A DNA stretch of 64,000 nucleotides, taken from positions 1 to 64,000 of the forward strand of contig JAFSSE010000012.1 in the NCBI GenBank assembly GCA_017445755.1. The letters are read 5' to 3'. A program made the translations under genes and the position numbers. The notes under the pieces are model-generated. The model was not told the origin of the DNA, searched no databases, and saw only the letters and a program-made list of their open reading frames with translations. Position 1 is the first letter of the stretch, and each line of letters opens with the position of its first letter. The DNA comes from Bacteroidales bacterium (GTDB lineage: Bacteria; Bacteroidota; Bacteroidia; Bacteroidales; UBA932). Shown in pieces: positions 1,876 through 52,566 of the stretch.

Positions 1876-4800
1876 TTACCTAACCCGGAAATCGGATCCG
1901 AATACAATCTTCTCCGCAACGGAACGAAGTTTCGCAGCATCCTCCGAAGGGATGTCGCAGTCCGAAGGATGGGCGCCGAAGGGCTCTCCGAAGAGTATCA
2001 GATAGTTGACGCAGGCCTTCAGGTAGGACCCGTAACGGCTTGGATGATAATTGTCGGTATAGAGAAGATAATTGTATGCAGCGCCGAAACCGCCCTCACT
2101 TCGCGCCTTTGCGAAGGCCTTGCCGATCGGAGACAGCCAGTTGATATTGGCGTCAGCCGCGGCGATCTCAGTCGAGCCCTTCCACATCATCTCGTCGAAT
2201 GCGTCGAAGCTCCCAAATCCCAGATAGTTACCTGTCGTCTTATAGGAATATGACCATACGCTCTCGAGAATAATTTCCGCCGAGGGGGACTTTTCCTTTA
2301 CAGCTGCACTCATGCGCCGGGTTAAGGCGAGTATTTCCTCAGGGCTGTACTTCGGGGTCACATCCGCGATTTTCGACGCATCCCCAAGTCCGTATTCAGC
2401 ATGGAAGTAGGAGCCGTCCTGGAGGATCGCCCTGTCATATCCGCCTTCCGCAACGAGCCGCTGCGAGAAAGGAAGGACATCGAGATGGTGCTCGAATTCC
2501 TGGGAACCCTTTACATTGATTCTCACGTCGGTGGCATGGCCTTCCGCACGGCAGATCTGCTTCAGCTTGAAGGCGGAACCATGATAATAGGTAAAGCTGT
2601 TCCCGAGCTGGAGCAGTTTCACCGGCTTCGATTCCTTTGCAGAGACCCCTGGATAAGCGGCAATCTCACAGGCATGATAGGTCATGCAAGGGAGATTTAT
2701 AAAGGCGCTCGGGGAAGGCGTGAGAGCTGAACCGGAACAGTTCACACTCCCGACAGCGCGGACCCTCATCTTGACAAAATCCCCGCTGACCGGCTCTGAG
2801 AGCTGGAAAGTGGTGATATAAGTACGGTGGTTCTTGCTGTCATAATCATAGACGTCGAAGGAATAGTCGGTCCCGTCTTCCGTGGCTTTATACCTCGGCT
2901 GGGCGTTCCAGCTGCCCTTGTCCCAGTATTCGAAGATGAAATACTTCGGAGTCTTGTTATTGTTAGTATTGATTGTCAACATGAAATCGACATCAGTCCC
3001 GGCCGGGAGAGTCGTAACCGGCACGCTGAACTGGATATAGTCCCCGGAGCCCATGTTGCCGACGCTCAGGGTCTGGGTTCCTCCGGGAGCGACCGAAAGG
3101 ACCAGTTCATTCCCGGTCGTGGAGCCGACGGTAATATATCCCGTTCCGGGATTATTTGAAGGGGCATCTGAGGCCGCCACCGTCGCCGCTACGCCTTCCC
3201 TTATCCAGCGTTTCCCGGCTTCATTGCTCTCGGTATAAGTCACCCCCTTTGTAATCTCCCAACGCGCGGGGAAACCGTCCACCGCGGTATAGAGATTATC
3301 CTGGGAGAGGGTCACACTCTTCGTATCTCCGCCCTGCTCGGAGAAGGTCAGCGTTCCGGACCGCTTTTCGGACACATTCCCGTTCCGGGGCTGGACAGGA
3401 ATGGTCACAGAGCGCATTGCAGCAATCTCCGAGGGTATGGAGGAGGTCTTTATCCAGTCGATATCCTTAGCCGAAACCGTTACTGGCTTTTCCCCTGTCG
3501 TTACCCTCAGCAGAGTCTGGGTATAGCCCGACCCCGGGAAACTGACAGCGGTTTCGCTGACAGCAAAGACCCCGGCAGGAAAAGAATCTCCACCTGAAGA
3601 GGCCGGAGCCGTCCCTCCCCCTACAATATTGGATTCATCCGCGGCCTTCCCGTTCACGGTGCCACCATATACACAGGAAGCAATTGTCCCTTCATTATAT
3701 CCGGCCACGGAACCGGCATAATGCTTTCCGGATTCGTCCGCCGTCTTTGTCGTAACCGTGCCTTTCCCGGCTCCGCTCTGCATCGTGGAACTCTGCAGAC
3801 GTCCTATGATTCCGCCGGCGTAAATCTCCGAAGGGACGGAGGTCGCGGTCGTAGTTTCGGCATTGAGGGTGCCGGTAAACTCGTTCTCCGAGAAATAGTC
3901 AATCACTCCCAGATCATAACCCACGATCCCGCCGGCATGCACTATCGCCGGATACGCTGCCTTAGATGCAGAAAAAGCGTTCTCCGCCAGGACTTTACCC
4001 TCATTCCGGTTCCGCTCCAGGGAGGTTACCCCGGATGCCATTCCGACAAGTCCTCCGGCGTTTACCCCGTAGAAAACCGAGGAGGAAGAAGGAGTCTTGT
4101 TGTGGCCCGAAGAAGCGACCTTCATCGATACTTCCCCGGTATTGACATTATCCGTCAAGAAGTTCTCACCGTAAGAAGTCGTCGTCCCTCCAAGAATGCC
4201 GCCAATTACCTGGAAACGCGTGGAGGCATGGGCGCTATGGTCTATCATGACCCGACCTTCATTGGTGCAGTCACTGATCCTCACCCCGTCCCCGCAGCCG
4301 GTAATGCCTCCGACATAGTGCTGATGGACCGCCTCGCTGTAGATATCTCCCCTGTTCGTACACCCATGGACAGTCACTTCCTGCCCGGGATCACCGGAGA
4401 TTTTCCCTCCGATTCCGCCGATGGAGAAGGCGTCGTTCTGGGTCTCTGAATACAGCAGCTCAAGCCGTCCCTCGTTTGTACAGTTATCTATGGAAACGGA
4501 AGAACAGGTGTGATATACTACACCTATGATACCTCCCATTCCGAATTCGCCGCTGTTCCGGCTGGTCATTGAAGCGTGGTTGTGGCAATTTGAAACCGTC
4601 ACCTCCGCAGAAGCGGTATTGGCTCCTCCAAGAATTCCGGCGGCAGAGAGATATTTGTATGTGGACCCCTCCGTAATCGGGTGGTTCTCGACCGTTATGG
4701 TTCCGTAGTTATGGCAGCCGGAAATTGAGTTCTTTCCGGTTGCCCAGGCGGCGATTCCGCCTACACGGCTACTCCTGTTGGACGAAGCGGTAACGGTGAC

Positions 4801-6006
4801 CGGAATGAAATTGGTCAGATTCTCTATATCCGCTCCCGGAAGCGTAACGGGGGCGGTATAGCTCCAGTATGAGGTGGTGGAACTTGTGTTGTAACCACTT
4901 ATGATACAGGATGTTCCATCATATGTTTTCCCGTCCTCGGACCCGAGGATGAGATCATGGATCTCCTTTGAATAGTCCTTCCCGAAGAAACCGAGGTGGG
5001 CAAGGGCCGAAGACTGGATATTGATATGGCTGATACAGTGTCCGTTGCCAAGGAGCTCTCCGGGATAGCTGTCGGTGAGCGGAGTCCACGGTTCGTCCTT
5101 CATATTGATATCACCGATGATTACAACCGTCTCTCCCTCGGGGTCCCAGTGGGCGGAATCACCCCTCCATGCAAGAAGGTCTTCGTAATTCGCAATCCGG
5201 TAGCCCCACTCGAGCCCGGTAAGGTTGAAACTACCGAGAAGCTGTGACCTGCCCCTTACCCTCTCGACTTCAGTTCCGGACGGGCGAGTCCCCTTCCTGG
5301 CGTCTTCCGTGCGGGAGAGCGAGACTTCCACTTCCACCTTTTCGCCGGGAATAACCGGGACATAACAGGTCCCGGGCGTAATGGAGGAGCCGGACGGGGT
5401 CAGAACGATGCAGTCGCTTCCGGCCTCGATGCCGAGGACCTCTCCCGTTGAGCCGTTTACCCTGAACTTTCCGGCAAGGGAGCTACCTTCCTTTACCGAC
5501 AGGGTCGCTCCTTTAATTCCTTCGCCGCTGAAACGAAGCTCCAGAAGCGAACATGCACCATGGAAAACCAGAGTGGAATCCGTCGTCTTTGCAACACAGG
5601 GAATCACCCCTGCCGCCCCGGTTTTCAGATTGGAAGGAAGGGACAGAACGACCTCCCCTTCCGAGAATGATTCCGCAGAAGATGCGGGCCAGACAGCATA
5701 GAAGGGGCCTTTCATCTTGGCTTCACCCTTGAAAACCGCCTTCCCGGAACTGATGGATGAGAGCGTCAATACAGCCGAAGCGTTTTCCGCTCCAAAGAGT
5801 TTTACCTGATCTCCTTCCGACCATGCCGGCATATCCGTAGAAACCGCCTCTGCAAAGGTTGCCGTAAAAGTACAGGCCCCGTCCAGGACAAATTCCGTCG
5901 GAGTCACGACAACCGGTCCGTCTTTCCCGTCATCGACCGGATTTGGCTCACGATGACAAGACAGCGTAAACAAAAGGAGTAAGGGTAAAACAATAAATCG
6001 TTTCAT
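1876..6006 (-). CDS. Giant surface lipoprotein: fimbrillin-like, GLUG-like repeats, BACON-like, SGNH hydrolase (DUF4886-like)
   Basis: 1376 residues starting at the ATG at 6006, which places the lipobox LSC at residues 16-18. Visible order: fimbrillin-like region (about 20-240); about nine GLUG-like repeats (about 420-790) recognised by GCxNxG-type units such as GCHNYGTI, NCTNEGRL, GCTNRGDI and DCTNEGRV alternating with GGIIG/GGILG; a BACON-like beta domain (about 820-905); a beta-rich carbohydrate-binding-like region (about 910-1115); and a C-terminal SGNH-like domain (about 1127-1370) with LGNSFTYY (nucleophile Ser) and the late DNYHPSRYG block (Asp/His). Probably exported and anchored at the surface, where the SGNH domain could de-esterify a glycan while the repeats act as stalk or adhesin. 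Substrate unknown. It is monocistronic, and divergent from msrA. Confidence 0.8.
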   Translation of the reverse strand: MKRFIVLPLLLLFTLSCHREPNPVDDGKDGPVVVTPTEFVLDGACTFTATFAEAVSTDMPAWSEGDQVKLFGAENASAVLTLSSISSGKAVFKGEAKMKGPFYAVWPASSAESFSEGEVVLSLPSNLKTGAAGVIPCVAKTTDSTLVFHGACSLLELRFSGEGIKGATLSVKEGSSLAGKFRVNGSTGEVLGIEAGSDCIVLTPSGSSITPGTCYVPVIPGEKVEVEVSLSRTEDARKGTRPSGTEVERVRGRSQLLGSFNLTGLEWGYRIANYEDLLAWRGDSAHWDPEGETVVIIGDINMKDEPWTPLTDSYPGELLGNGHCISHINIQSSALAHLGFFGKDYSKEIHDLILGSEDGKTYDGTSCIISGYNTSSTTSYWSYTAPVTLPGADIENLTNFIPVTVTASSNRSSRVGGIAAWATGKNSISGCHNYGTITVENHPITEGSTYKYLSAAGILGGANTASAEVTVSNCHNHASMTSRNSGEFGMGGIIGVVYHTCSSVSIDNCTNEGRLELLYSETQNDAFSIGGIGGKISGDPGQEVTVHGCTNRGDIYSEAVHQHYVGGITGCGDGVRISDCTNEGRVMIDHSAHASTRFQVIGGILGGTTTSYGENFLTDNVNTGEVSMKVASSGHNKTPSSSSVFYGVNAGGLVGMASGVTSLERNRNEGKVLAENAFSASKAAYPAIVHAGGIVGYDLGVIDYFSENEFTGTLNAETTTATSVPSEIYAGGIIGRLQSSTMQSGAGKGTVTTKTADESGKHYAGSVAGYNEGTIASCVYGGTVNGKAADESNIVGGGTAPASSGGDSFPAGVFAVSETAVSFPGSGYTQTLLRVTTGEKPVTVSAKDIDWIKTSSIPSEIAAMRSVTIPVQPRNGNVSEKRSGTLTFSEQGGDTKSVTLSQDNLYTAVDGFPARWEITKGVTYTESNEAGKRWIREGVAATVAASDAPSNNPGTGYITVGSTTGNELVLSVAPGGTQTLSVGNMGSGDYIQFSVPVTTLPAGTDVDFMLTINTNNNKTPKYFIFEYWDKGSWNAQPRYKATEDGTDYSFDVYDYDSKNHRTYITTFQLSEPVSGDFVKMRVRAVGSVNCSGSALTPSPSAFINLPCMTYHACEIAAYPGVSAKESKPVKLLQLGNSFTYYHGSAFKLKQICRAEGHATDVRINVKGSQEFEHHLDVLPFSQRLVAEGGYDRAILQDGSYFHAEYGLGDASKIADVTPKYSPEEILALTRRMSAAVKEKSPSAEIILESVWSYSYKTTGNYLGFGSFDAFDEMMWKGSTEIAAADANINWLSPIGKAFAKARSEGGFGAAYNYLLYTDNYHPSRYGSYLKACVNYLILFGEPFGAHPSDCDIPSEDAAKLRSVAEKIVFGSDFRVR

Positions 6007-6039
6007 GGTCATCAGTTTTTTGGTATTTCTGCCAGAGTA

Positions 6040-6047
6040 CAAAAGTA
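6040..6047 (-). promoter_or_regulatory. -7 box (TACTTTTG) for the SGNH lipoprotein gene
   Basis: Reverse complement reads TACTTTTG, matching TAnnTTTG, 33 bases before the ATG at 6006. It lies back to back with the forward box at 6068-6075 in the divergent intergenic region. Confidence 0.55.
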
Positions 6048-6067
6048 AGAAAAATCTATTAAATCAT

Positions 6068-6075
6068 TATATTTG
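6068..6075 (+). promoter_or_regulatory. -7 box TATATTTG for the msrA operon
   Basis: Exact TAnnTTTG match ending 5 bases before the ATG at 6081, the same spacing as at 971-978; a nearly leaderless transcript is possible. Confidence 0.6.
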
Positions 6076-6080
6076 CACTT

Positions 6081-7019
6081 ATGAAAGAACTCTATCTGGC
6101 TGCTGGCTGTTTTTGGGGCGGGGAGAAGTATCTCTCCCTGCTCGACGGCGTAATCGAAACAGAAGTCGGATTCGCAAACGGAAACACCGAAAATCCGACT
6201 TACAGGGAGGTCTATACCGATACGACCGGCTATGCCGAAACCATAAGGGTGGTTTTCGACCCCGAAGTCCTGCCGCTCGAAAAGCTTGTCAGGATGTACT
6301 TCCGGTCCATTGACCCCCTTAGCGTCAACCGCCAGGGAGAGGACGAAGGAACCCGCTACAGGACAGGGGTTTATTATGTCGATGCCGAAGATCTTCCCGC
6401 CCTTAAAGCGGTATTTGCGGAAGAAGAGGCGAAGGCCGGAGCCCCGCTTGCCGTAGAACTGCTTCCCCTGAAGAATTTCTATCCGGCCGACGAGTCCCAC
6501 CAGGATTATCTGGAAAAGAATCCGGGGGGATACTGCCACCTTCCCTTCGCCCTCTTTGAATTCGCATCCTCCGAGGCGGGGAAGAAAAAACGCGCCTACC
6601 GGGAAATCGAAGATATGCTCGCCTCCCTTCTCGAAGGCGAAACCGACCCCGTCGTAAGGATGGCTGAAACCGCGGCGGTGGTCCATGAAAGGATGGGGTT
6701 CTTCTGGACCGGCTTTTACCGTGTCCGCGGGGATGAACTCCTCCTTGGCCCCTTCCAGGGCCCTGTCGCCTGTATTCATATTCCCTTCGGGAAAGGTGTC
6801 TGCGGAACGGCATGGAAGGAAAACAGGACCATTGTAGTCCCCGATGTAGAGGCCTTCCCCGGCCATATCGCATGCAGCAGCCGCTCCAGAAGCGAGATTG
6901 TCGTGCCCCTGCGGGAGAAAGGCCAGGTCGTCGCCGTCCTCGATATAGACAGTACAGAAACAGGAACCTTCGACAGCACTGACGCCCTTATGCTCGAACG
7001 ACTTCTAAGAATTGTATAG
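6081..7019 (+). CDS. msrA: Fusion of MsrA with free methionine-(R)-sulfoxide reductase (GAF)
   Basis: 312 residues with no signal peptide, so cytoplasmic. Residues 1-155 are MsrA: GCFWG with nucleophile Cys10, and YPADESHQDY followed by GGYCH (Cys152, likely resolving). Residues about 175-312 are a GAF-type free Met-R-sulfoxide reductase (YebR/fRMsr): WTGFYRV, LGPFQG, IPFGKGVCGTAW, HIACSSRSRSEI and LDIDS. Its three expected redox cysteines are present at 231, 241 and 265. One chain would therefore reduce S-sulfoxides (free and protein-bound) and free R-sulfoxide. The usual Bacteroidota fusion partner of MsrA is MsrB, which is absent. First gene of an operon, 21 bases before the ACT protein gene. 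The methionine/aspartate-family link to that neighbour is inference. Confidence 0.92.
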   Translation: MKELYLAAGCFWGGEKYLSLLDGVIETEVGFANGNTENPTYREVYTDTTGYAETIRVVFDPEVLPLEKLVRMYFRSIDPLSVNRQGEDEGTRYRTGVYYVDAEDLPALKAVFAEEEAKAGAPLAVELLPLKNFYPADESHQDYLEKNPGGYCHLPFALFEFASSEAGKKKRAYREIEDMLASLLEGETDPVVRMAETAAVVHERMGFFWTGFYRVRGDELLLGPFQGPVACIHIPFGKGVCGTAWKENRTIVVPDVEAFPGHIACSSRSRSEIVVPLREKGQVVAVLDIDSTETGTFDSTDALMLERLLRIV

Positions 7020-43628: not shown

Positions 43629-45266
43629 ATGCTTGACAAAGAACGCGGGCTGTACGTTGCCCACTCGGAAAACGGACCCATCTCTCTGGTTGGCAAGATG
43701 GCTAACCGCCACGGACTCATCGCCGGAGCTACCGGCACCGGAAAAACCGTAACCCTCCAGGTACTGGCGGAGACTTTCTGCCAGGCCGGCGTCCCCTGCT
43801 TCATGGCAGATATGAAAGGCGACGTCTCCGGCATCAGCCAGACGGGAAAACTCTCCAGCTTCATTGAGAAGCGCCTGCCCGAATTCGGCATCGAGGATCC
43901 CGCCTTCCAGGGCTGCCCTGTACGCTTTTTCGATGTTTTCGGAGAGCAGGGACACCCGATGAGGGCAACGATTTCGGACATGGGCCCGGACCTTCTCGGG
44001 CGGCTCATGGAGCTGAATGAGACCCAGACCGGCGTTCTCAACATAGTCTTCAAGATTGCGGATGACAACGGGCTCCTTCTGATAGACCTGAAGGACCTTC
44101 GGGCCATGCTCAATTTCGTCGGACAGAACGCCGCGGAGTTTACGACCAAGTATGGAAACGTCACCGCCGCCTCGGTCGGCGCGATCCAGAGGGCTGTCCT
44201 CGCCCTGGAGACCCAGGGAGGAGAGAAGTTCTTCGGAGAACCGGCCTTCGACATCTATGACCTCCTCCAGTGCGAGGGCGGAAAAGGTATCATGAACGTA
44301 CTTGCGGCCGACAAGCTGATGCTCCGTCCGAAACTCTACTCGACCTTCCTGCTCTGGCTCCTGTCGGAACTCTACTCGACCCTCCCGGAAGTCGGCGACA
44401 TGGATCTTCCGAAACTGGTCTTCTTCTTCGACGAGGCCCATATGCTCTTCGAGGATACCTCCAAGGCCCTTGTCAGTAAAATCGAACAGGTTATCCGCCT
44501 TATCCGTTCCAAGGGCGTCGGAATCTATTTCGTGACCCAGAGTCCGACCGATATCCCCGAGAACATCCTCGGCCAGCTCGGAAACCGTGTCCAGCACGCC
44601 CTCCGCGCCTATACCCCGAAGGACCAGAAGGCAGTAAAAACCGCCGCGGAGACCTTCCGCTCCAATCCCGCCTTTGACACCTACACAACCCTTCTCGAAC
44701 TCGGAACGGGCGAAGCCCTCGTCTCCTTCCTCGATGAAAAGGGAGCCCCGAGAATAGTCGAACGCGCAAAGATTCTCTTCCCGCTCTCCCAAATCGGCGC
44801 AATTACGGAAGAGCAGCGCAAGCAGATTATCAACTCATCCCGTCTCTACGGCCGCTATGACCATGTCGTCGACCGCGAGAGCGCCTATGAACTGATCACC
44901 CAGGCGACTCAGGAGGCCGAGCGGCAGAAGGCCGAACTCGAAGCCGCCGAAGAGGCCGCCCGCCAGAAGGAACTCGAGGCGAAGGAAGCTGAAAAAGCGG
45001 CCAAGGAAGCAGCCAGGGCCGAACGCGAGGCCGCAAAGAAAGCCAAGAACAGTATCGGCTCCAAGGTTCTGAAATCCGTCCTCACCGCCGTAACCGGCGT
45101 AGTCGCCGCCGGCGTTGCCGACGCTGTCACCGGAAAAGTCACCGGCACGAAGAAGACCTCCTCGACCTCCACTACAAAGAAGGCCGTCACCAAGGCCACC
45201 AACGCTGCCACAAAGACCGTGACCCGCGAACTTACCCGCTCGATTCTCGGCAACTTGATTAAATAA
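43629..45266 (+). CDS. DUF853/HerA-like ATPase with coiled-coil tail
   Basis: 545 residues. Walker A GATGTGKT near residue 34, Walker B LVFFFDEAHMLF near 260, and the FVTQSPTDIPENILGQLGNRVQHALRAYTPKDQKAV segment are typical of DUF853 (HerA-related) ATPases. From about 420 an Ala/Glu/Lys-rich coiled coil (QEAERQKAELEAAEEAARQ) is followed by a Gly/Ala-rich hydrophobic hairpin (VLTAVTGVVAAGVADAVTG) and a Thr/Lys-rich end. The cellular role of DUF853 proteins is unclear: DNA pumping by analogy to HerA, or a membrane-linked function given the hydrophobic segment. Confidence 0.85.
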   Translation: MLDKERGLYVAHSENGPISLVGKMANRHGLIAGATGTGKTVTLQVLAETFCQAGVPCFMADMKGDVSGISQTGKLSSFIEKRLPEFGIEDPAFQGCPVRFFDVFGEQGHPMRATISDMGPDLLGRLMELNETQTGVLNIVFKIADDNGLLLIDLKDLRAMLNFVGQNAAEFTTKYGNVTAASVGAIQRAVLALETQGGEKFFGEPAFDIYDLLQCEGGKGIMNVLAADKLMLRPKLYSTFLLWLLSELYSTLPEVGDMDLPKLVFFFDEAHMLFEDTSKALVSKIEQVIRLIRSKGVGIYFVTQSPTDIPENILGQLGNRVQHALRAYTPKDQKAVKTAAETFRSNPAFDTYTTLLELGTGEALVSFLDEKGAPRIVERAKILFPLSQIGAITEEQRKQIINSSRLYGRYDHVVDRESAYELITQATQEAERQKAELEAAEEAARQKELEAKEAEKAAKEAARAEREAAKKAKNSIGSKVLKSVLTAVTGVVAAGVADAVTGKVTGTKKTSSTSTTKKAVTKATNAATKTVTRELTRSILGNLIK

Positions 45267-47371: not shown

Positions 47372-48435
47372 TATTTGAAATCATCTTTATAGCCGCGGAG
47401 GGCCCGTTCCTGTTCACGGTAAACAAGGGCACCGAAAACTCCGGTGCCGCCCTGGATGTTTGAGTAGACGTTATCGTGGTCATACACGTAACGTATATCC
47501 CGACCTTTGTTTTGCTCTTTCTGGTAAATGTCTTTCAAATAAAGGTCCAGTTCATCAGAAACAGCATATATATCAAATATTCCGCCCTCTGTCGGTTCGT
47601 AGTCCCGCGGATAATCCGTAATCAGTATGAAACTCTGGTCGGAATATAGCGGAGAATCATTCAACTCGTCGTAGGGATATCCGTTTGTGAAGCCGGTAGG
47701 GAATCTGAGGCGCACCATCTGGCTATGCATCGGGAGATCTGAATATTTATCACGAATCCATATTTTCTGCGAAAAAATTGATGTTTTCCAAAGCTTGACA
47801 GAATCTTTTCTGAAACACGGCAACTCTCCGACAGTCTTCTCTGTCTGATTAAAATCGTCGACAAGCGGATGCGTAGTCGCTATGTCCTGTCCCTCCTTAT
47901 GAAAAATCCAAAGATTTGCGCTCTTTCTGTATGCTGCTCCCCTCAAGTCTTCATAAGTATAGTAATCATGGTAGAAACGGCGGATTCTAAGTTCGCAAGA
48001 ACAATAAAGGTAATTGATAACCAACCCGGGCCGTATCTTCATAAACTGTTTTACATAAAACTCCTGTGGGAAAGTCGTTTCCGCCGAAAGGATTTCCCTG
48101 TCTGCAGTCGATACGGAAAGAGAATAGCGGCCGCCATATTCCGGTACCATGGCGCAGGCCCACTCTGATTCGGTATTTCTTCTAAATTCCCAACACTCGT
48201 CCTGTCCCTTCCCGGACAGCATGACCCGGATACCGTCCGGGAGCGCCTGCGGCACTGCCGTCCCGTGCGGAGACAACACCTTGAGGGAAAGGGTCTGCAC
48301 CGAGTCCCGTGTCAGGATACAATGGACCGACAGCGGCAGATTCTCCGCCGGTGAGAAGTCCACCGGTTCCACACACGATGCCATCAAGGCGGCGTACGCC
48401 GCCGCAGCAATCATATGTAAAACCTTATTGTTCAT
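47371..48435 (-). CDS. DUF4249 lipoprotein
   Basis: 354 residues with a lipobox (MASCVEP, Cys21). The pattern LPLSVHCILTRDSVQTLSLK, then beta-rich RYSLSVSTADREILSAETTFP, and a C-terminal VFGALVYREQERALRG, is that of DUF4249, a family found next to TonB receptors. It is assumed to be a surface partner that captures or presents ligand. The first 11 bases lie inside the protease gene, suggesting translational coupling. Confidence 0.85.
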   Translation of the reverse strand: MNNKVLHMIAAAAYAALMASCVEPVDFSPAENLPLSVHCILTRDSVQTLSLKVLSPHGTAVPQALPDGIRVMLSGKGQDECWEFRRNTESEWACAMVPEYGGRYSLSVSTADREILSAETTFPQEFYVKQFMKIRPGLVINYLYCSCELRIRRFYHDYYTYEDLRGAAYRKSANLWIFHKEGQDIATTHPLVDDFNQTEKTVGELPCFRKDSVKLWKTSIFSQKIWIRDKYSDLPMHSQMVRLRFPTGFTNGYPYDELNDSPLYSDQSFILITDYPRDYEPTEGGIFDIYAVSDELDLYLKDIYQKEQNKGRDIRYVYDHDNVYSNIQGGTGVFGALVYREQERALRGYKDDFK

Positions 48436-50194
48436 CTCCCAGCCGTATTACTCTCGCCAAGTCCCCACACGGGGTGTAATAACTTACCCAGACAGAGGGC
48501 TCCACCCCGCTTCCGTCCGTTTCAAAGTCCACGTACCGATATCCTTGATACAGAGGTGTCCAATCGGGATTGTCGCACTCCCATGAAAAGCCATATGCTC
48601 CCGCAGGACATGAAAAACTATATACACCTTCAAATCCGGAAATCAACTCCGAAGAAAAATAGTTCCCTACGCCCCAAAGTGTGATGTCTTTATAAATATC
48701 AATGTTTATCCCGGCTGACACGTTTGCATGAATAGTAGAACTCGTGAACGGACTGCTTATAAAGCATCCGGCTGTTGTAGAAGATGACGTCGTAGAGTAA
48801 AAATAAACATTTGTACCTGACCAAGTTATACCGGCACTTGAGGGAAGACCTGTTATATAATAGGTCCCGTTGTAATTATTTGACAAATTTGACGGCCCTT
48901 GTATTGCCGATAACTGAGGCGTCTCCAAGGTATTGATTTTTCCGCTATACTCCGGATATGACTCATATTGAGGCGTTTCAATTGCATTATCCGCCATCTG
49001 GGCATATGAAAATGCTTCGTAAAAAGAAATACCTGTCAAATCGTCGATATCCGCATCAACGGAACTCTCGTCTCCCACAACATACCCTTTCATTGAAGAC
49101 ATCCACCAGAAAAGGAATGCATCATATTCCAGGTTGCTCCTGGCATAGGATTCTTCATCCGCAGCGCACGCCGTTGCTATAGAAAAGTTCGGCTTATTCA
49201 TGGCCCCGACAAATCCTCCGCTATAACACTGGCCCATCACTATTCCGGTATGGCCCGAATAGTTATGCAGCTTATTGACCTCCGTCCTGAACTCGGACGG
49301 AGATAACAACTCGTTATTCCATAGACGAATATACGAAGTGTTACCTATCCGCTCACCGTGATCACAGACATATATGAACACATCGTCCCCGTCTGCGACT
49401 TGTTGACCAAGGGATGTGAAAACTGATTGCAAATTTGATTTAGTCGCCGAATATAAATTGCTCTCTGTGACTCCATCTCCATCATAATCTGTAGGAGACG
49501 ATACAAACGGACCCGTTATACGCTGACCATTCAGATAGTAATCATAATAACACAGGTTCATATCTTCATCCGAAGATGTTCCATCAGACATCAACAGGTA
49601 GATATGGCTTTTATTATAGTTATAATTCTGGGTCAGAATACGGAACATCTCGGAACAGTCATTCCAGTAGCGCTCGTAATTGTTTTCCTTTGTGACGCCA
49701 CCGCTAATGATTACAGCCCAATTATTACTGGATGAACTGCTTTTGGTGGTTTGGACTGATCTGTTTCCCGCAGAATTATGGACTGTCCTGGACGGAATAT
49801 CGGTAGGATATCGGAACCCCCACCATTTTCCGTCGTCTTCGAAAATGAAATAACGTTTCTCTGGCTCAATAAAGATGACACCCGTCTTTGCATTCACAAA
49901 TACGTATCTATATTTAGCTAAGCCATTTGATAGAGACTCGTACATCACGACCATCCACGACAAATAATTAGGAGTATAATAATCCGGAGCATAAGCCCCC
50001 TGCTTAATCGCTGTTTTCGGCTTAAGCGGTTCCGCTGAAATAAATGCACAGTCAAACATTTGCCACAGCTCTTCCGTAAGTTCTATGGCCTGATCACGGC
50101 TCACCAGAGAACCGTCCTCGTTATAGTATCCGCTGTTTTTCCGGCAGGAAAACAACACCAGCAGAATAAAAAGAAACAATACATTACGTTTCAT
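48425..50194 (-). CDS. Clan CD (C13 legumain-like) cysteine protease lipoprotein
   Basis: 589 residues. Lipobox LFSCRKN (Cys17). Residues about 20-150 form a propeptide-like region ending in a Ser-rich linker. Residues about 157-360 show a caspase-like fold: NNWAVIISGG, then DDVFIYVCDHGERIG with catalytic His279, then GIVMGQCYSGGF with catalytic Cys323 and ATACAADEESY. The HG and QCYSG pair and their spacing fit C13-like peptidases better than C25 gingipains or C14. The last 200 residues are beta-rich and Ser/Thr/Tyr-rich, probably binding or anchoring. AT-richer than its surroundings. First gene of the operon with DUF4249 and the TonB receptor: a cut, bind and import unit (inference). Confidence 0.8.
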   Translation of the reverse strand: MKRNVLFLFILLVLFSCRKNSGYYNEDGSLVSRDQAIELTEELWQMFDCAFISAEPLKPKTAIKQGAYAPDYYTPNYLSWMVVMYESLSNGLAKYRYVFVNAKTGVIFIEPEKRYFIFEDDGKWWGFRYPTDIPSRTVHNSAGNRSVQTTKSSSSSNNWAVIISGGVTKENNYERYWNDCSEMFRILTQNYNYNKSHIYLLMSDGTSSDEDMNLCYYDYYLNGQRITGPFVSSPTDYDGDGVTESNLYSATKSNLQSVFTSLGQQVADGDDVFIYVCDHGERIGNTSYIRLWNNELLSPSEFRTEVNKLHNYSGHTGIVMGQCYSGGFVGAMNKPNFSIATACAADEESYARSNLEYDAFLFWWMSSMKGYVVGDESSVDADIDDLTGISFYEAFSYAQMADNAIETPQYESYPEYSGKINTLETPQLSAIQGPSNLSNNYNGTYYITGLPSSAGITWSGTNVYFYSTTSSSTTAGCFISSPFTSSTIHANVSAGINIDIYKDITLWGVGNYFSSELISGFEGVYSFSCPAGAYGFSWECDNPDWTPLYQGYRYVDFETDGSGVEPSVWVSYYTPCGDLARVIRLGDEQ

Positions 50195-50224
50195 TGTAAA
50201 TCAGTGCTATAATTATGATTATGA

Positions 50225-50232
50225 CAAATGTA
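50225..50232 (-). promoter_or_regulatory. -7 box TACATTTG for the protease operon
   Basis: Reverse complement is an exact TAnnTTTG match 30 bases before the protease ATG at 50194. Confidence 0.55.
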
Positions 50233-50280
50233 CATAAAAACTTTCGATTTTAGGCCAATTGCATTTTAAAGAGGAAAAAT

Positions 50281-50318
50281 ATATATTTGGAGATGATGAA
50301 ATCTAAGAGAATCTTTTT
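50281..50318 (+). repeat. Left direct repeat flanking hipBA; copy of the sulfatase gene start
   Basis: 35 of 38 bases match 52205-52242, including a perfect 20-base core (50291-50310). It contains ATGATGAAATCTAAG, the same start as the sulfatase remnant; from 50293 it would encode only a 17-residue peptide before a stop. This is best read as a duplicated gene start left at the upstream edge of the hipBA module. Confidence 0.85.
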
Positions 50319-50376
50319 TGAGATTTGCTCGAAGATGCAGAAATAAACTATAATAAGATAATGTTTAAGTATAAAA

Positions 50377-50407
50377 TTTGATTTTTAACTATAATTAATT
50401 ACATTTG
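50377..50407 (+). promoter_or_regulatory. hipBA promoter: -33 TTTG and -7 box TACATTTG
   Basis: TACATTTG at 50400-50407 matches the -7 box, and TTTG at 50377-50380 is 19 bases upstream, the spacing expected for the -33 element. The hipB ATG follows 22 bases later. AT-rich flanks could serve as the HipB autoregulatory operator; no clear palindrome was identified. Confidence 0.6.
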
Positions 50408-50429
50408 CATCGATAAAGACTGATGCGTT

Positions 50430-50738
50430 ATGGACTTAAAAAAGTATTCGAACACCCAGATACTGCAGATGCTAGGGCTGAGGTTCAAGGATTACAGGTT
50501 GATGATGAACCTTTCCCAGGGAGACCTGGCCAAGGCGGCCGGGGTTTCTGTTTCCACAGTCCACAAGTTTGAGACAGGTACAATCACGAATATGAACATC
50601 ACCAACCTGATGGCCCTGCTCCGACCAGTTGGCCTGTTAGACCGGTTCGATGACTTGATTCCGGAGCAGCCCGAGAATCCATACTTGACTACTACGGAGC
50701 ATCAGAGGCAAAGAGTCAGGAGGAAGAACAATGGCTAG
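50430..50738 (+). CDS. hipB: HipB-like antitoxin (XRE-family HTH)
   Basis: 102 residues. A Cro/C1-type helix-turn-helix covers about 12-70: LGLRFKDYRLMMNLSQGDLAKAAGVSVSTVHKFETG. It should bind its own promoter and neutralise HipA. The last 8 bases overlap hipA, the usual arrangement of these modules. The pair sits between direct repeats. Confidence 0.88.
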   Translation: MDLKKYSNTQILQMLGLRFKDYRLMMNLSQGDLAKAAGVSVSTVHKFETGTITNMNITNLMALLRPVGLLDRFDDLIPEQPENPYLTTTEHQRQRVRRKNNG

Positions 50739-52230
50739 GAATATAGACAATGGCCGCCTGAGTGTCATGCTCTGGGGACAGGAGATTGGGCAAATCTGCT
50801 GGAATCCGAAAAAGGGGAACTCATATTTTTTCTTTTCACACGATTATCTTGCTTCGGGGCTGGATATCGCACCTCTGACCGCTTCGTCGAAAAGTCCTTC
50901 TGCCCGTTTCGCTATCTATGGCAACACGGATTCCGCGAAATATCAGAAACTCCCGCCCTTCATCGCGGATTCCCTTCCCGATGATTGGGGCAACACCCTT
51001 TTCGATCAGTGGTTCACCGAGCATCATTATCACGAAAAAGACAAGACTCCCCTGGCGAAACTTTCCTTTGTCGGCAGCCGCGCTATGGGTGCTCTTGAAT
51101 TCATTCCCTGCAGCGAGGAATCCTTCAGCGCCAATGAAAAGCTGATAATCCCGAAACTGTATGAACTGGCGAAGAAGATCGAACAGGACCGTGAACACGC
51201 CATCATCTCCCCGGAAGAGACCCTTACACAGAAAGCGCTGATGGCTGTCGGCACGTCCGCCGGCGGGCGGTTCAAGAAAGCGATTATCGCAATGGATGAA
51301 GGTGGAAACATCTTCTCCGGCCAGACTTCTGCACGGGGAGACCGGAAGTACTACATCCTCAAATTCAATACCCCTGAGTTCTGTCTCTCGGAGATAGAGA
51401 AGACCTGGTATGACCTTGCTACAACGGCGGGCATCACGATGATGCCCTCTCGACTGATTGAAGTGGAAGGCATCCACCATTTCCTGACCGAACGGTTTGA
51501 CCGTCGCGCCGGTGAGAAGGTCTTCACCCAAACGCTCGCAGCGGTCAATCCCGAGGCATATTGCTATGAGGATCTTTTCTCCACCTGCAGACAGCTCTCT
51601 ATCCCACAGGATGAGCTTAATGAGCTTTACTTGCGGATGGTGTTCAATATCCTTTCCAACAATACGGACGACCATGCTAAGAATTTCTCTTTCATCATGG
51701 AAAAAGACGGATCCTGGCACCTCTCCCCTGCTTATGATCTCTGCTTCATTTTGAAGACCGCTGCCGTGCCCGAGAAGAATCACGAGTTCTCCATTCGTGG
51801 GAAATTCGAAGATATCACCCTCGCAGACCTCCTGGCCTTCGCCGCCCAGAACGATATCAAAAATCCCGCGAAGTACATCGAAAAGGTCAAGGACACGCTC
51901 CGTGATTTCAGGGCGCTGGCGACATCGAATGGCGTCGCTCCCCTCTTCATCGACATAATAGAGACACGACTGCGTGAACTCTCTCCGGATGTCTTTGCTC
52001 CGGCCGTCGTCACTCCAGATCTTATCCGGTTCGAGATGACCGACTCTGGAAACATCCATTTGTATGCGACAATTGACGGCCAGGAAAAACGACGGGTCTT
52101 CACTAAGAAAAGCAAGCAGTATGAGGCCGTTCTCGATGCCATGAAAAAAACGCTCTCGAAAGAGGAACAGAAAGAGATTCTTGAAAGGTATTTGGGTTTT
52201 TTTCATATATTTATAGATGATGAAATCTAA
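50731..52230 (+). CDS. hipA: HipA-type serine/threonine kinase toxin
   Basis: 499 residues. HipA_N-like region (about 1-125, with LPDDWGNTLFDQWF), Gly-rich loop GTSAGGRFKKA (174-184), catalytic loop NTDDHAKN (311-318) and metal-binding SPAYDL (332-337), all as in active HipA. E. coli HipA phosphorylates glutamyl-tRNA synthetase and halts translation; the target here is unknown. It is longer than E. coli HipA (440 residues) by a C-terminal extension with QEKRRVFTKKSKQYEAVLDAMK. The last codons, including the stop at 52228-52230, lie within the right direct repeat, so the extreme C-terminus (IFIDDEI) is supplied by the target sequence. Confidence 0.92.
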   Translation: MARNIDNGRLSVMLWGQEIGQICWNPKKGNSYFFFSHDYLASGLDIAPLTASSKSPSARFAIYGNTDSAKYQKLPPFIADSLPDDWGNTLFDQWFTEHHYHEKDKTPLAKLSFVGSRAMGALEFIPCSEESFSANEKLIIPKLYELAKKIEQDREHAIISPEETLTQKALMAVGTSAGGRFKKAIIAMDEGGNIFSGQTSARGDRKYYILKFNTPEFCLSEIEKTWYDLATTAGITMMPSRLIEVEGIHHFLTERFDRRAGEKVFTQTLAAVNPEAYCYEDLFSTCRQLSIPQDELNELYLRMVFNILSNNTDDHAKNFSFIMEKDGSWHLSPAYDLCFILKTAAVPEKNHEFSIRGKFEDITLADLLAFAAQNDIKNPAKYIEKVKDTLRDFRALATSNGVAPLFIDIIETRLRELSPDVFAPAVVTPDLIRFEMTDSGNIHLYATIDGQEKRRVFTKKSKQYEAVLDAMKKTLSKEEQKEILERYLGFFHIFIDDEI

Positions 52231-52242
52231 GAGACTCTTTTT
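52205..52242 (+). repeat. Right direct repeat flanking hipBA
   Basis: Matches 50281-50318 at 35 of 38 positions; the perfect core is 52215-52234. It carries both the hipA stop codon and the start of the sulfatase remnant at 52217. Confidence 0.85.
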
Positions 52243-52566
52243 GGCAGCTGTGGCCACAACGGCCGCCGTCGGGTGTACCGGTAACAAAACGGCGACAAAG
52301 CCGAATATAGTCTTTTTCCTGGTCGATGACTACGGATGGCTCGACAGTAGCGTCGCCTACGGGGAAGAAGTCTATCCGAACAACCTGAGGATTGACACGC
52401 CGAATATGCAGCGGCTCTCCGAGCGGAGCAGCATGATGTAGCCGATGAGTATCCGGAAGTTACCAGCATCCTCGCCGCACGGCTCGGCAGTACGCTGACC
52501 CGTTGGAATGCCAGCATGCCTACAGTCCGTGCAACAGGAAAGCCGGTTCCTATGCCGGGCCGGTGA
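52217..52566 (+). pseudogene. Sulfatase remnant: head and tail only
   Basis: From 52217 a lipoprotein signal (VGCTGNK) is followed by the sulfatase start KPNIVFFLVDDYGW and TPNMQRLSE, then a stop at 52439-52441. From 52441 another frame carries a sulfatase-like C-terminus, EVTSILAARLGSTLTRWNASMP, ending at 52566. Family members have about 450-550 residues; only about 115 remain, and the catalytic Cys/Ser-x-Pro-x-Arg site is gone. The core was lost with a frame change. The start overlaps hipA by 14 bases. It converges on rsmD with 1 base between the stop codons. Confidence 0.85.

Follow-up and report, generated by a model that had tools for sequence, protein, structure and literature searches.

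The hipBA toxin–antitoxin operon in a 64,000-nt stretch of Bacteroidales DNA (hereafter the window) lies inside a 38-nt direct repeat that carries the start of a sulfatase gene. Our analysis favors, with a confidence somewhat above even, the insertion of hipBA with a long target duplication into the 5' end of this sulfatase gene and a subsequent decay of the gene; that the duplication was made by the insertion is likely. The features of the locus are shown in Table 1.

Table 1 Features in and around the hipBA locus of the window
Feature	Position	Strand	Basis
Scar of IS110-family left end (first 41 nt, body missing)	50224..50264	+	95% identical to start of full IS110-type copy
Promoter-like TTG-N20-TATATTTG	50259..50289	+	Pattern found; first half inside IS scar
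Left copy of 38-nt direct repeat, carrying truncated sulfatase start	50281..50318	+	Repeat comparison
hipBA cassette (DNA common to relatives at other loci)	50343..52193	+	Similarity limits in relative loci
Cassette promoter region, TTG-N19-TACATTTG at 50378-50407, plus AT-rich repeats	50343..50429	+	Pattern search; conserved cassette start
hipB antitoxin, 102 aa	50430..50738	+	HTH_3 PF01381, E 3.2e-9
hipA toxin kinase, 499 aa	50731..52230	+	HipA_C E 2e-39, Couple_hipA E 2.1e-11
Right copy of 38-nt direct repeat: hipA stop and sulfatase start	52205..52242	+	Repeat comparison
Sulfatase N-terminal remnant, 74 codons	52217..52441	+	Best matches 53-74% identical to intact genus sulfatases
Sulfatase C-terminal remnant, 42 codons, different frame	52438..52566	+	Matches C-terminus of intact genus sulfatases at up to 62% identity

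Direct repeat around hipBA

The two copies of the repeat are identical at 35 of 38 nt with a perfect 20-nt core, and both contain ATGATGAAATCTAAG. The ungapped score of the pair was 29, compared with a best score of 12 among 575 mismatched pairs of left and right flanks from related loci; thus, the repeat is not due to chance. When the draft host genome (2.18 Mb, 83% complete, 44 contigs) was searched, the only two matches were the copies themselves. None of the other 150 genus genomes searched contained the exact 18-nt core, and among 316 loci compared the 38-mer matched only those overlapping the window, besides matches of 13–14 nt. The bracketing repeat described in the initial annotation is thus confirmed. 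Its claim that the right copy provides the last codons and stop of hipA was also borne out (TAA at 52228–52230), and so was the absence of a mobility gene, as only hipB and hipA were recognized between the copies and no transposase or integrase gene was found there. Judged against the usual size range of transposon duplications, a repeat of 38 nt enclosing hipBA is long. Gaps of 24 nt (left) and 11 nt (right) separate the repeat from the conserved cassette, and the three mismatches between the copies suggest that the insertion was not a recent event.

It is highly improbable that the repeat is an assembly artefact of a metagenome-type draft. The incomplete and fragmented host genome would fit such an error, but there are three mismatches between the copies, their longest identical run of 20 bases would be short for an assembly overlap, and the hipA frame continues across the right junction into a tail of the normal kind. 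Two other sources of the repeat were considered and rejected: old paralogues as a simple origin, given that the best sulfatase relatives differ at their start and that the core is absent from the 150 genomes, and a site-specific integrase (att) element, given the same absence and the lack of any repeat at 17 of 19 loci (see below).

The hipBA operon

Domain content and gene order identify hipBA as a type II toxin–antitoxin module: HTH_3, HipA_C and Couple_hipA all exceeded the Pfam cut-offs, and hipB overlaps hipA by 8 nt. The curated NCBIfam hip models scored below cut-off (couple_hipB, 37.2 bits with 71.65 needed; YjjJ, 35.2 bits with 401 needed), so that the assignment holds at the level of the Pfam family but not of a named NCBIfam subfamily. 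The hipA motifs NNTDDHAKNFS and SPAYDL align with the HipT and HipA chains, and from the roles of their residues we take them to be HipA kinase motifs. The last 14 residues of hipA, from residue 486 on, are locus-specific. On this basis hipBA is a predicted toxin–antitoxin pair with a complete operon, and the AT-rich repeats in its promoter region may be HipB operators. We also observed a weak match of hipA to the PADLOC candidate defence model PDC-M03A (E 1.7e-6), and a second, distant hipA is present in the host genome (G000:C40:83421-84695, 37% identity).

Limits of the cassette across the genus

We searched 400 genus genomes, including that of the host, with the hipBA stretch. Some DNA match was found in 58 of them, and 19 genomes besides the host matched at least 1,345 of 1,962 nt at 70–85% identity. 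Similarity started at window positions 50334–50351 in 23 of 29 relative loci, whereas L036 started at 50385 (cassette position 105 on) and the other five had no left end. These 29 loci represent 22 distinct contexts besides the window, and a common start (within 18 nt) was seen in 21 of the 22. On the right side, 11 of the 29 loci ended at 52178–52193, including one that stops where its contig does; the remaining 18 right ends were contig ends, points of earlier divergence or cases with a shortened or broken hipA. Several loci (L131, L133, L137, L139 and L140) had a hipA that was shortened or frame-broken near the 3' end and an intact hipB frame. The limits also agreed between pairs of relatives at 84–90% identity with both ends present, in which starts were mostly within 10 nt of each other (at most 39 nt, from a shared context) and ends within about 60 nt. 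Past the last shared residues, hipA tails varied from none (L128) to 16 residues (L126), as every locus supplies its own stop.

Proteins encoded in the flanks were mostly unrelated across contexts. Nine neighbors from seven loci could be classified, and they included GreA, arginyl-tRNA synthetase, citrate synthase, a DPP IV-type peptidase, an ABC transporter and a SIS-domain protein. One neighbor gene is common to L035 and L126 (68% over 136 aa), which makes the full independence of these two loci doubtful. Since the limits are the same, the flanks differ and the neighbors are ordinary, mostly unrelated genes, a unit of ~1.85 kb with its own predicted promoter recurs with nothing else alongside. 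Such limits could instead be kept by selection on the operon alone, without insertion of a unit; but at 88–90% identity the unselected flanks of a common insertion should align, and they do not. Thus, the view of hipBA as a discrete unit was upheld by the shared start in 21 of 22 other contexts and the shared end in 11 loci within unrelated flanks. No short target duplications at the cassette edges were seen when the locus alignment was examined by eye.

Repeats at other hipBA loci

Nineteen cassette-family loci had both flanks available, including L129 and L130, which represent one context, and L137, L139, L140, L142, L143 and L166, whose right edges were extrapolated because hipA was cut short or frame-broken. 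A direct repeat above the null was found at two of them, the window and L165 in G426, and at none of the other 17; widening the flanks to 1.5 kb added only a 14-nt match in L140. At L165 (G426:C130), hipBA is flanked on each side by a copy of a terminator-like hairpin (49 and 44 nt, around 1409–1441 and 3394–3429). A search of the G426 genome with the left hairpin copy returned only itself at E 0.001, and the right copy was too short to be listed.

A further case came from a more distant hipBA in another family of the order. In G096, a 99% complete genome, L269 (G096:C38) is bracketed by an 87-nt direct repeat of 92% identity (4268–4354 and 6332–6418), of which the genome has exactly these two copies. 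Both contain the start of one and the same reverse-strand gene, which reads on for 72 codons from one copy and breaks off in the other; this is the anatomy of the window locus again.

This locus belongs to a wider set in which 57 of 60 hipA loci were testable, three being dropped for short flanks. A direct repeat was found at 6 of the 57 loci and at 5 of 228 control intervals (one-sided Fisher P=0.010), or at 5 of 57 and 5 of 228 when a 22-nt hit was excluded to keep longer repeats only (P=0.030), a weak comparison in which the control hits (five hits at four loci) were taken uninspected. Five of the six hits in hipA loci were inspected, the 22-nt hit (L283) being the exception, and only L269 was clean. 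The repeats of L266 and L299 were of low complexity or had further copies in the same stretch. At L297 (G040:C169), a two-gene HipA module lies between full-length paralogous genes of 178 aa each (3659–4195 and 5838–6374). At L274 (G039:C23), hipBA is bracketed by a direct repeat of 215–229 nt (79% identity; 4245–4459 and 6136–6364) for which we have no explanation and which had no third copy among the compared loci of that genome. In an earlier test of 20 loci, of which 18 were testable (two had short flanks), three were above the null (best of 306 pairs, 13): L016 and L018, which correspond to L266 and L269, and L020, whose 29-nt palindromic repeat fell below the threshold of the wider test. 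The idea that long repeats generally surround hipA loci was rejected, as most of the inspected hits in the wider set were multi-copy, low-complexity, paralogous or unexplained.

Part of the earlier proposal therefore needs revision. Duplicated flanks around hipBA homologues, which it led one to expect, were found in G426 and G096, and a gene start left in duplicate was found in the window and at L269; but the absence of repeats at 17 of the 19 family loci and the diverse, ordinary neighbors indicate that landing at a gene start is no rule of this cassette.

These repeat-free loci also bear on the order of events. If the sulfatase start had been duplicated first, by slippage or local recombination, hipBA could have landed between the copies later in an unrelated event. 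Most cassette relatives are at repeat-free sites, so that insertion needs no repeat, and the repeat in the window stands off from the shared cassette edges, both of which accord with such an order. However, two events at one 38-nt spot would be needed, likewise in G096 and G426, and in both the window and G096 the repeat occurs nowhere but at the hipBA locus. We consider this order unlikely.

Sulfatase remnant and IS110-family scar

Intact relatives of the sulfatase in the genus have open frames of about 520–640 codons that match both pieces found downstream of hipBA. The gene at 52217–52566 is a pseudogene in which the two ends are retained, roughly 400 or more codons are gone and the frame shifts at about 52438. 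The right copy of the repeat runs on as MMKSKRLFLAAVATTAAVGCTGNK..., a lipoprotein-type sulfatase start whose frame stops after 74 codons, and the left copy reads MMKSKRIFFEICSKMQK, breaking off at the cassette edge. The earlier reading of a sulfatase start in both copies thus stands, but the gene downstream is a remnant and no working sulfatase. Just before and inside the left copy lies TTG-N20-TATATTTG, which fits the Bacteroidetes promoter consensus and is possibly the sulfatase's own promoter. The presence of this promoter-like sequence on one side of hipBA and of the gene body on the other agrees with the prediction of a target duplication.

The IS110-family scar ends 16 nt outside the left repeat. 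In the full IS110-type copy the transposase domains PF01548 and PF02371 are present, and the same left end is dispersed in 38 of 400 genus genomes, where several copies are also truncated; it was present in all 18 IS110 loci fetched. The 94.8-kb contig of the window contains no IS110 right end, no transposase and no other part of that element. We read the scar as an older, separate event that may have had a role in the rearrangement. A stronger version, in which an IS110-family element upstream of the sulfatase drove the rearrangement and was lost or recombined, with hipBA entering then, would be in line with the closeness of the 41-nt scar to the left repeat. It is quite improbable, considering the lack of a right end and a transposase on the contig, the absence of such a transposase from the 30 cassette loci compared and the absence of the left-end motif from all 29 cassette loci other than the window. 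A composite or IS-borne transposon was rejected as well: the left-end scar is on one side only, and the contig, checked for the IS110 type, lacks a right end and a transposase.

Empty sites and possible vehicles

The initial annotation proposed to look in relatives for an empty site with a single repeat copy. No such site was found, and none of the relatives among 400 genus genomes carried the target site: joining the window flanks without hipBA gave no match across the junction, with two candidates scored per genome. For the greA-context cassette of G122, searched in 61 genomes, greA-side matches in other contigs and genomes stopped before the junction. At the G426 locus, a search of 200 genomes for the empty site showed conservation of the right-hand gene alone, which by eye we take to be FabF.

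A plasmid collection yielded 728 records and a phage collection 5 records, all under 60% identity to hipA, and no viral contig carrying this hipA was confirmed; a closely related hipA was not found in the plasmid, phage or viral collections. These searches are relevant to a circular donor with hipBA and a piece of the sulfatase start, which by a single crossover at short homology would produce a repeat without target duplication. The same anatomy would result, and relatives of hipA do occur on Bacteroides plasmids (43% identity). On the other hand, neither the 24 nt nor the 11 nt just beyond the cassette edges matches the flank of any other cassette, the interval between the two repeat copies contains no plasmid backbone, and no close hipA was found in the collections. 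We give this route a small probability.

Proposed course of events

Target duplication is supported by a unique, near-identical repeat exactly around hipBA, by the gene body and the promoter-like sequence adjoining different copies, by the recurrence of the hipBA unit with constant limits at unrelated loci, by the further unique repeats at G096 and G426, by the excess of repeats in the wider set and by the precedent of restriction–modification systems. The missing empty site, the 17 of 19 family loci without a repeat, the flaws of most hits in the wider set, the 24- and 11-nt gaps to the cassette edges, the three mismatches and the IS110 scar, a trace of another rearrangement at the same spot, argue against it. 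Under insertion with target duplication, a self-contained hipBA addiction module would have entered the 5' end of the sulfatase gene and duplicated its target, of which 38 recognizable nt would remain on each side. The module would carry its own promoter and end at the last shared hipA codons, with local DNA then supplying the hipA tail and stop codon. Such an insertion would separate the sulfatase from the promoter-like sequence, which would stay with the left copy, and the sulfatase would lose its middle and decay while hipBA stayed intact. The molecular route would most likely be illegitimate recombination at staggered or resected ends, and addiction would select the cells that keep the insert. 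Old insertions would lose the recognizable repeat, and such fading may account for the rarity of repeats. We infer that the repeat was made by the insertion and infer the molecular route as well; the order of events has to be deduced because no empty site was found.

More broadly, hipBA modules of Bacteroidales might be autonomous minimal cassettes that spread transposase-free by a long-target-duplication route like that of restriction–modification systems. Their target would often be a gene start or terminator, and the repeat would fade with age, so that only younger insertions show it; addiction modules of unrelated biochemistry would then have one insertion route in common. We regard this generalization as possible but doubtful.

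Comparison with known systems

Insertion of restriction–modification systems with long target duplication is said to have been described by Nobusato in 2000 and Furuta in 2010. According to an excerpt of PMC3874152, some of these systems insert with long, variable target duplications of the order of 100 bp, and an excerpt of PMC3031569 states that comparison of related genomes suggested long-target-duplication insertion for all restriction–modification types. As far as these excerpts describe it, the hipBA locus is similar in having an addiction module inside a long target repeat with no transposase or integrase gene inside. It differs in that the module is a type II toxin–antitoxin pair with a HipA-type kinase, that the duplication in the window (38 nt) is shorter than the ~100 bp given in the excerpt of PMC3874152, and that the empty site of the window was not found. 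A search of titles and abstract starts in the open-licence literature found no description of a long target duplication around hipBA.

A horizontally acquired chromosomal type II module is relBE in the Qin prophage, an example that reportedly comes from Ramisetty and Santhosh in 2016. In an excerpt of PMC6379469, relBE shortens hokD; similarly, hipBA would have entered the chromosome as a bare operon and altered the end of a neighboring gene. In contrast to that example as given in the excerpt, the limits of hipBA were deduced by comparing many insertions within a single genus, and the toxin takes its last codons from local DNA. Like the toxin–antitoxin cassettes of super-integrons, as portrayed in part of PMC2654758, hipBA would move as a complete operon together with its promoter; unlike them, it is in no array, and in the 11 loci with an intact right end the shared unit stops within the last hipA codons, where a recombination site after the gene would probably have no space. 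The hipBA of Bacteroides plasmids (for example, NZ_OY725773.1) also pairs a toxin of the HipA family with a helix-turn-helix protein (hipA of the window is 43% identical to the plasmid protein), and hipA of the window resembles Escherichia coli HipA and Legionella HipT (E about 1e-7 to the solved HipA and HipT); hipBA of the window is chromosomal and distant in sequence from all three.

For the question of how toxin–antitoxin pairs that lack mobility genes spread between chromosomes, this cassette offers many insertions of one ~1.85-kb unit within a single genus, and the limits of the unit can be placed to within a few bases. In the window, G426 and G096, the duplicated target may mark the insertion event. 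If this is true, long-target-duplication insertion would extend from restriction–modification to a kinase toxin system.

Neighborhood of the locus

To place the locus in its surroundings, 18 stretches from 15 relatives, picked by rsmD or sulfatase matches, were compared. In 10 of the 15 relatives, the window gene nearest to rsmD on that side was the ATPase of 43629–45266, which was convergent with rsmD at 343–489 bp in six (L104–L108 and L118) and on the same strand at about 1.48 kb in four (L101–L103 and L116); it was missing from the rsmD side in the other five. No sulfatase pieces were found between the ATPase and rsmD in the 18 stretches, and three good sulfatase matches were located elsewhere, about 14–15 kb from rsmD. 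The C13-type peptidase of the window was found in none of 60 relatives. Considering the distribution of the peptidase and of the sulfatase pieces, the space between the ATPase and rsmD was probably filled in the host lineage. The peptidase itself (48425–50194) belongs to the legumain family (PF01650) and has a signal peptide.
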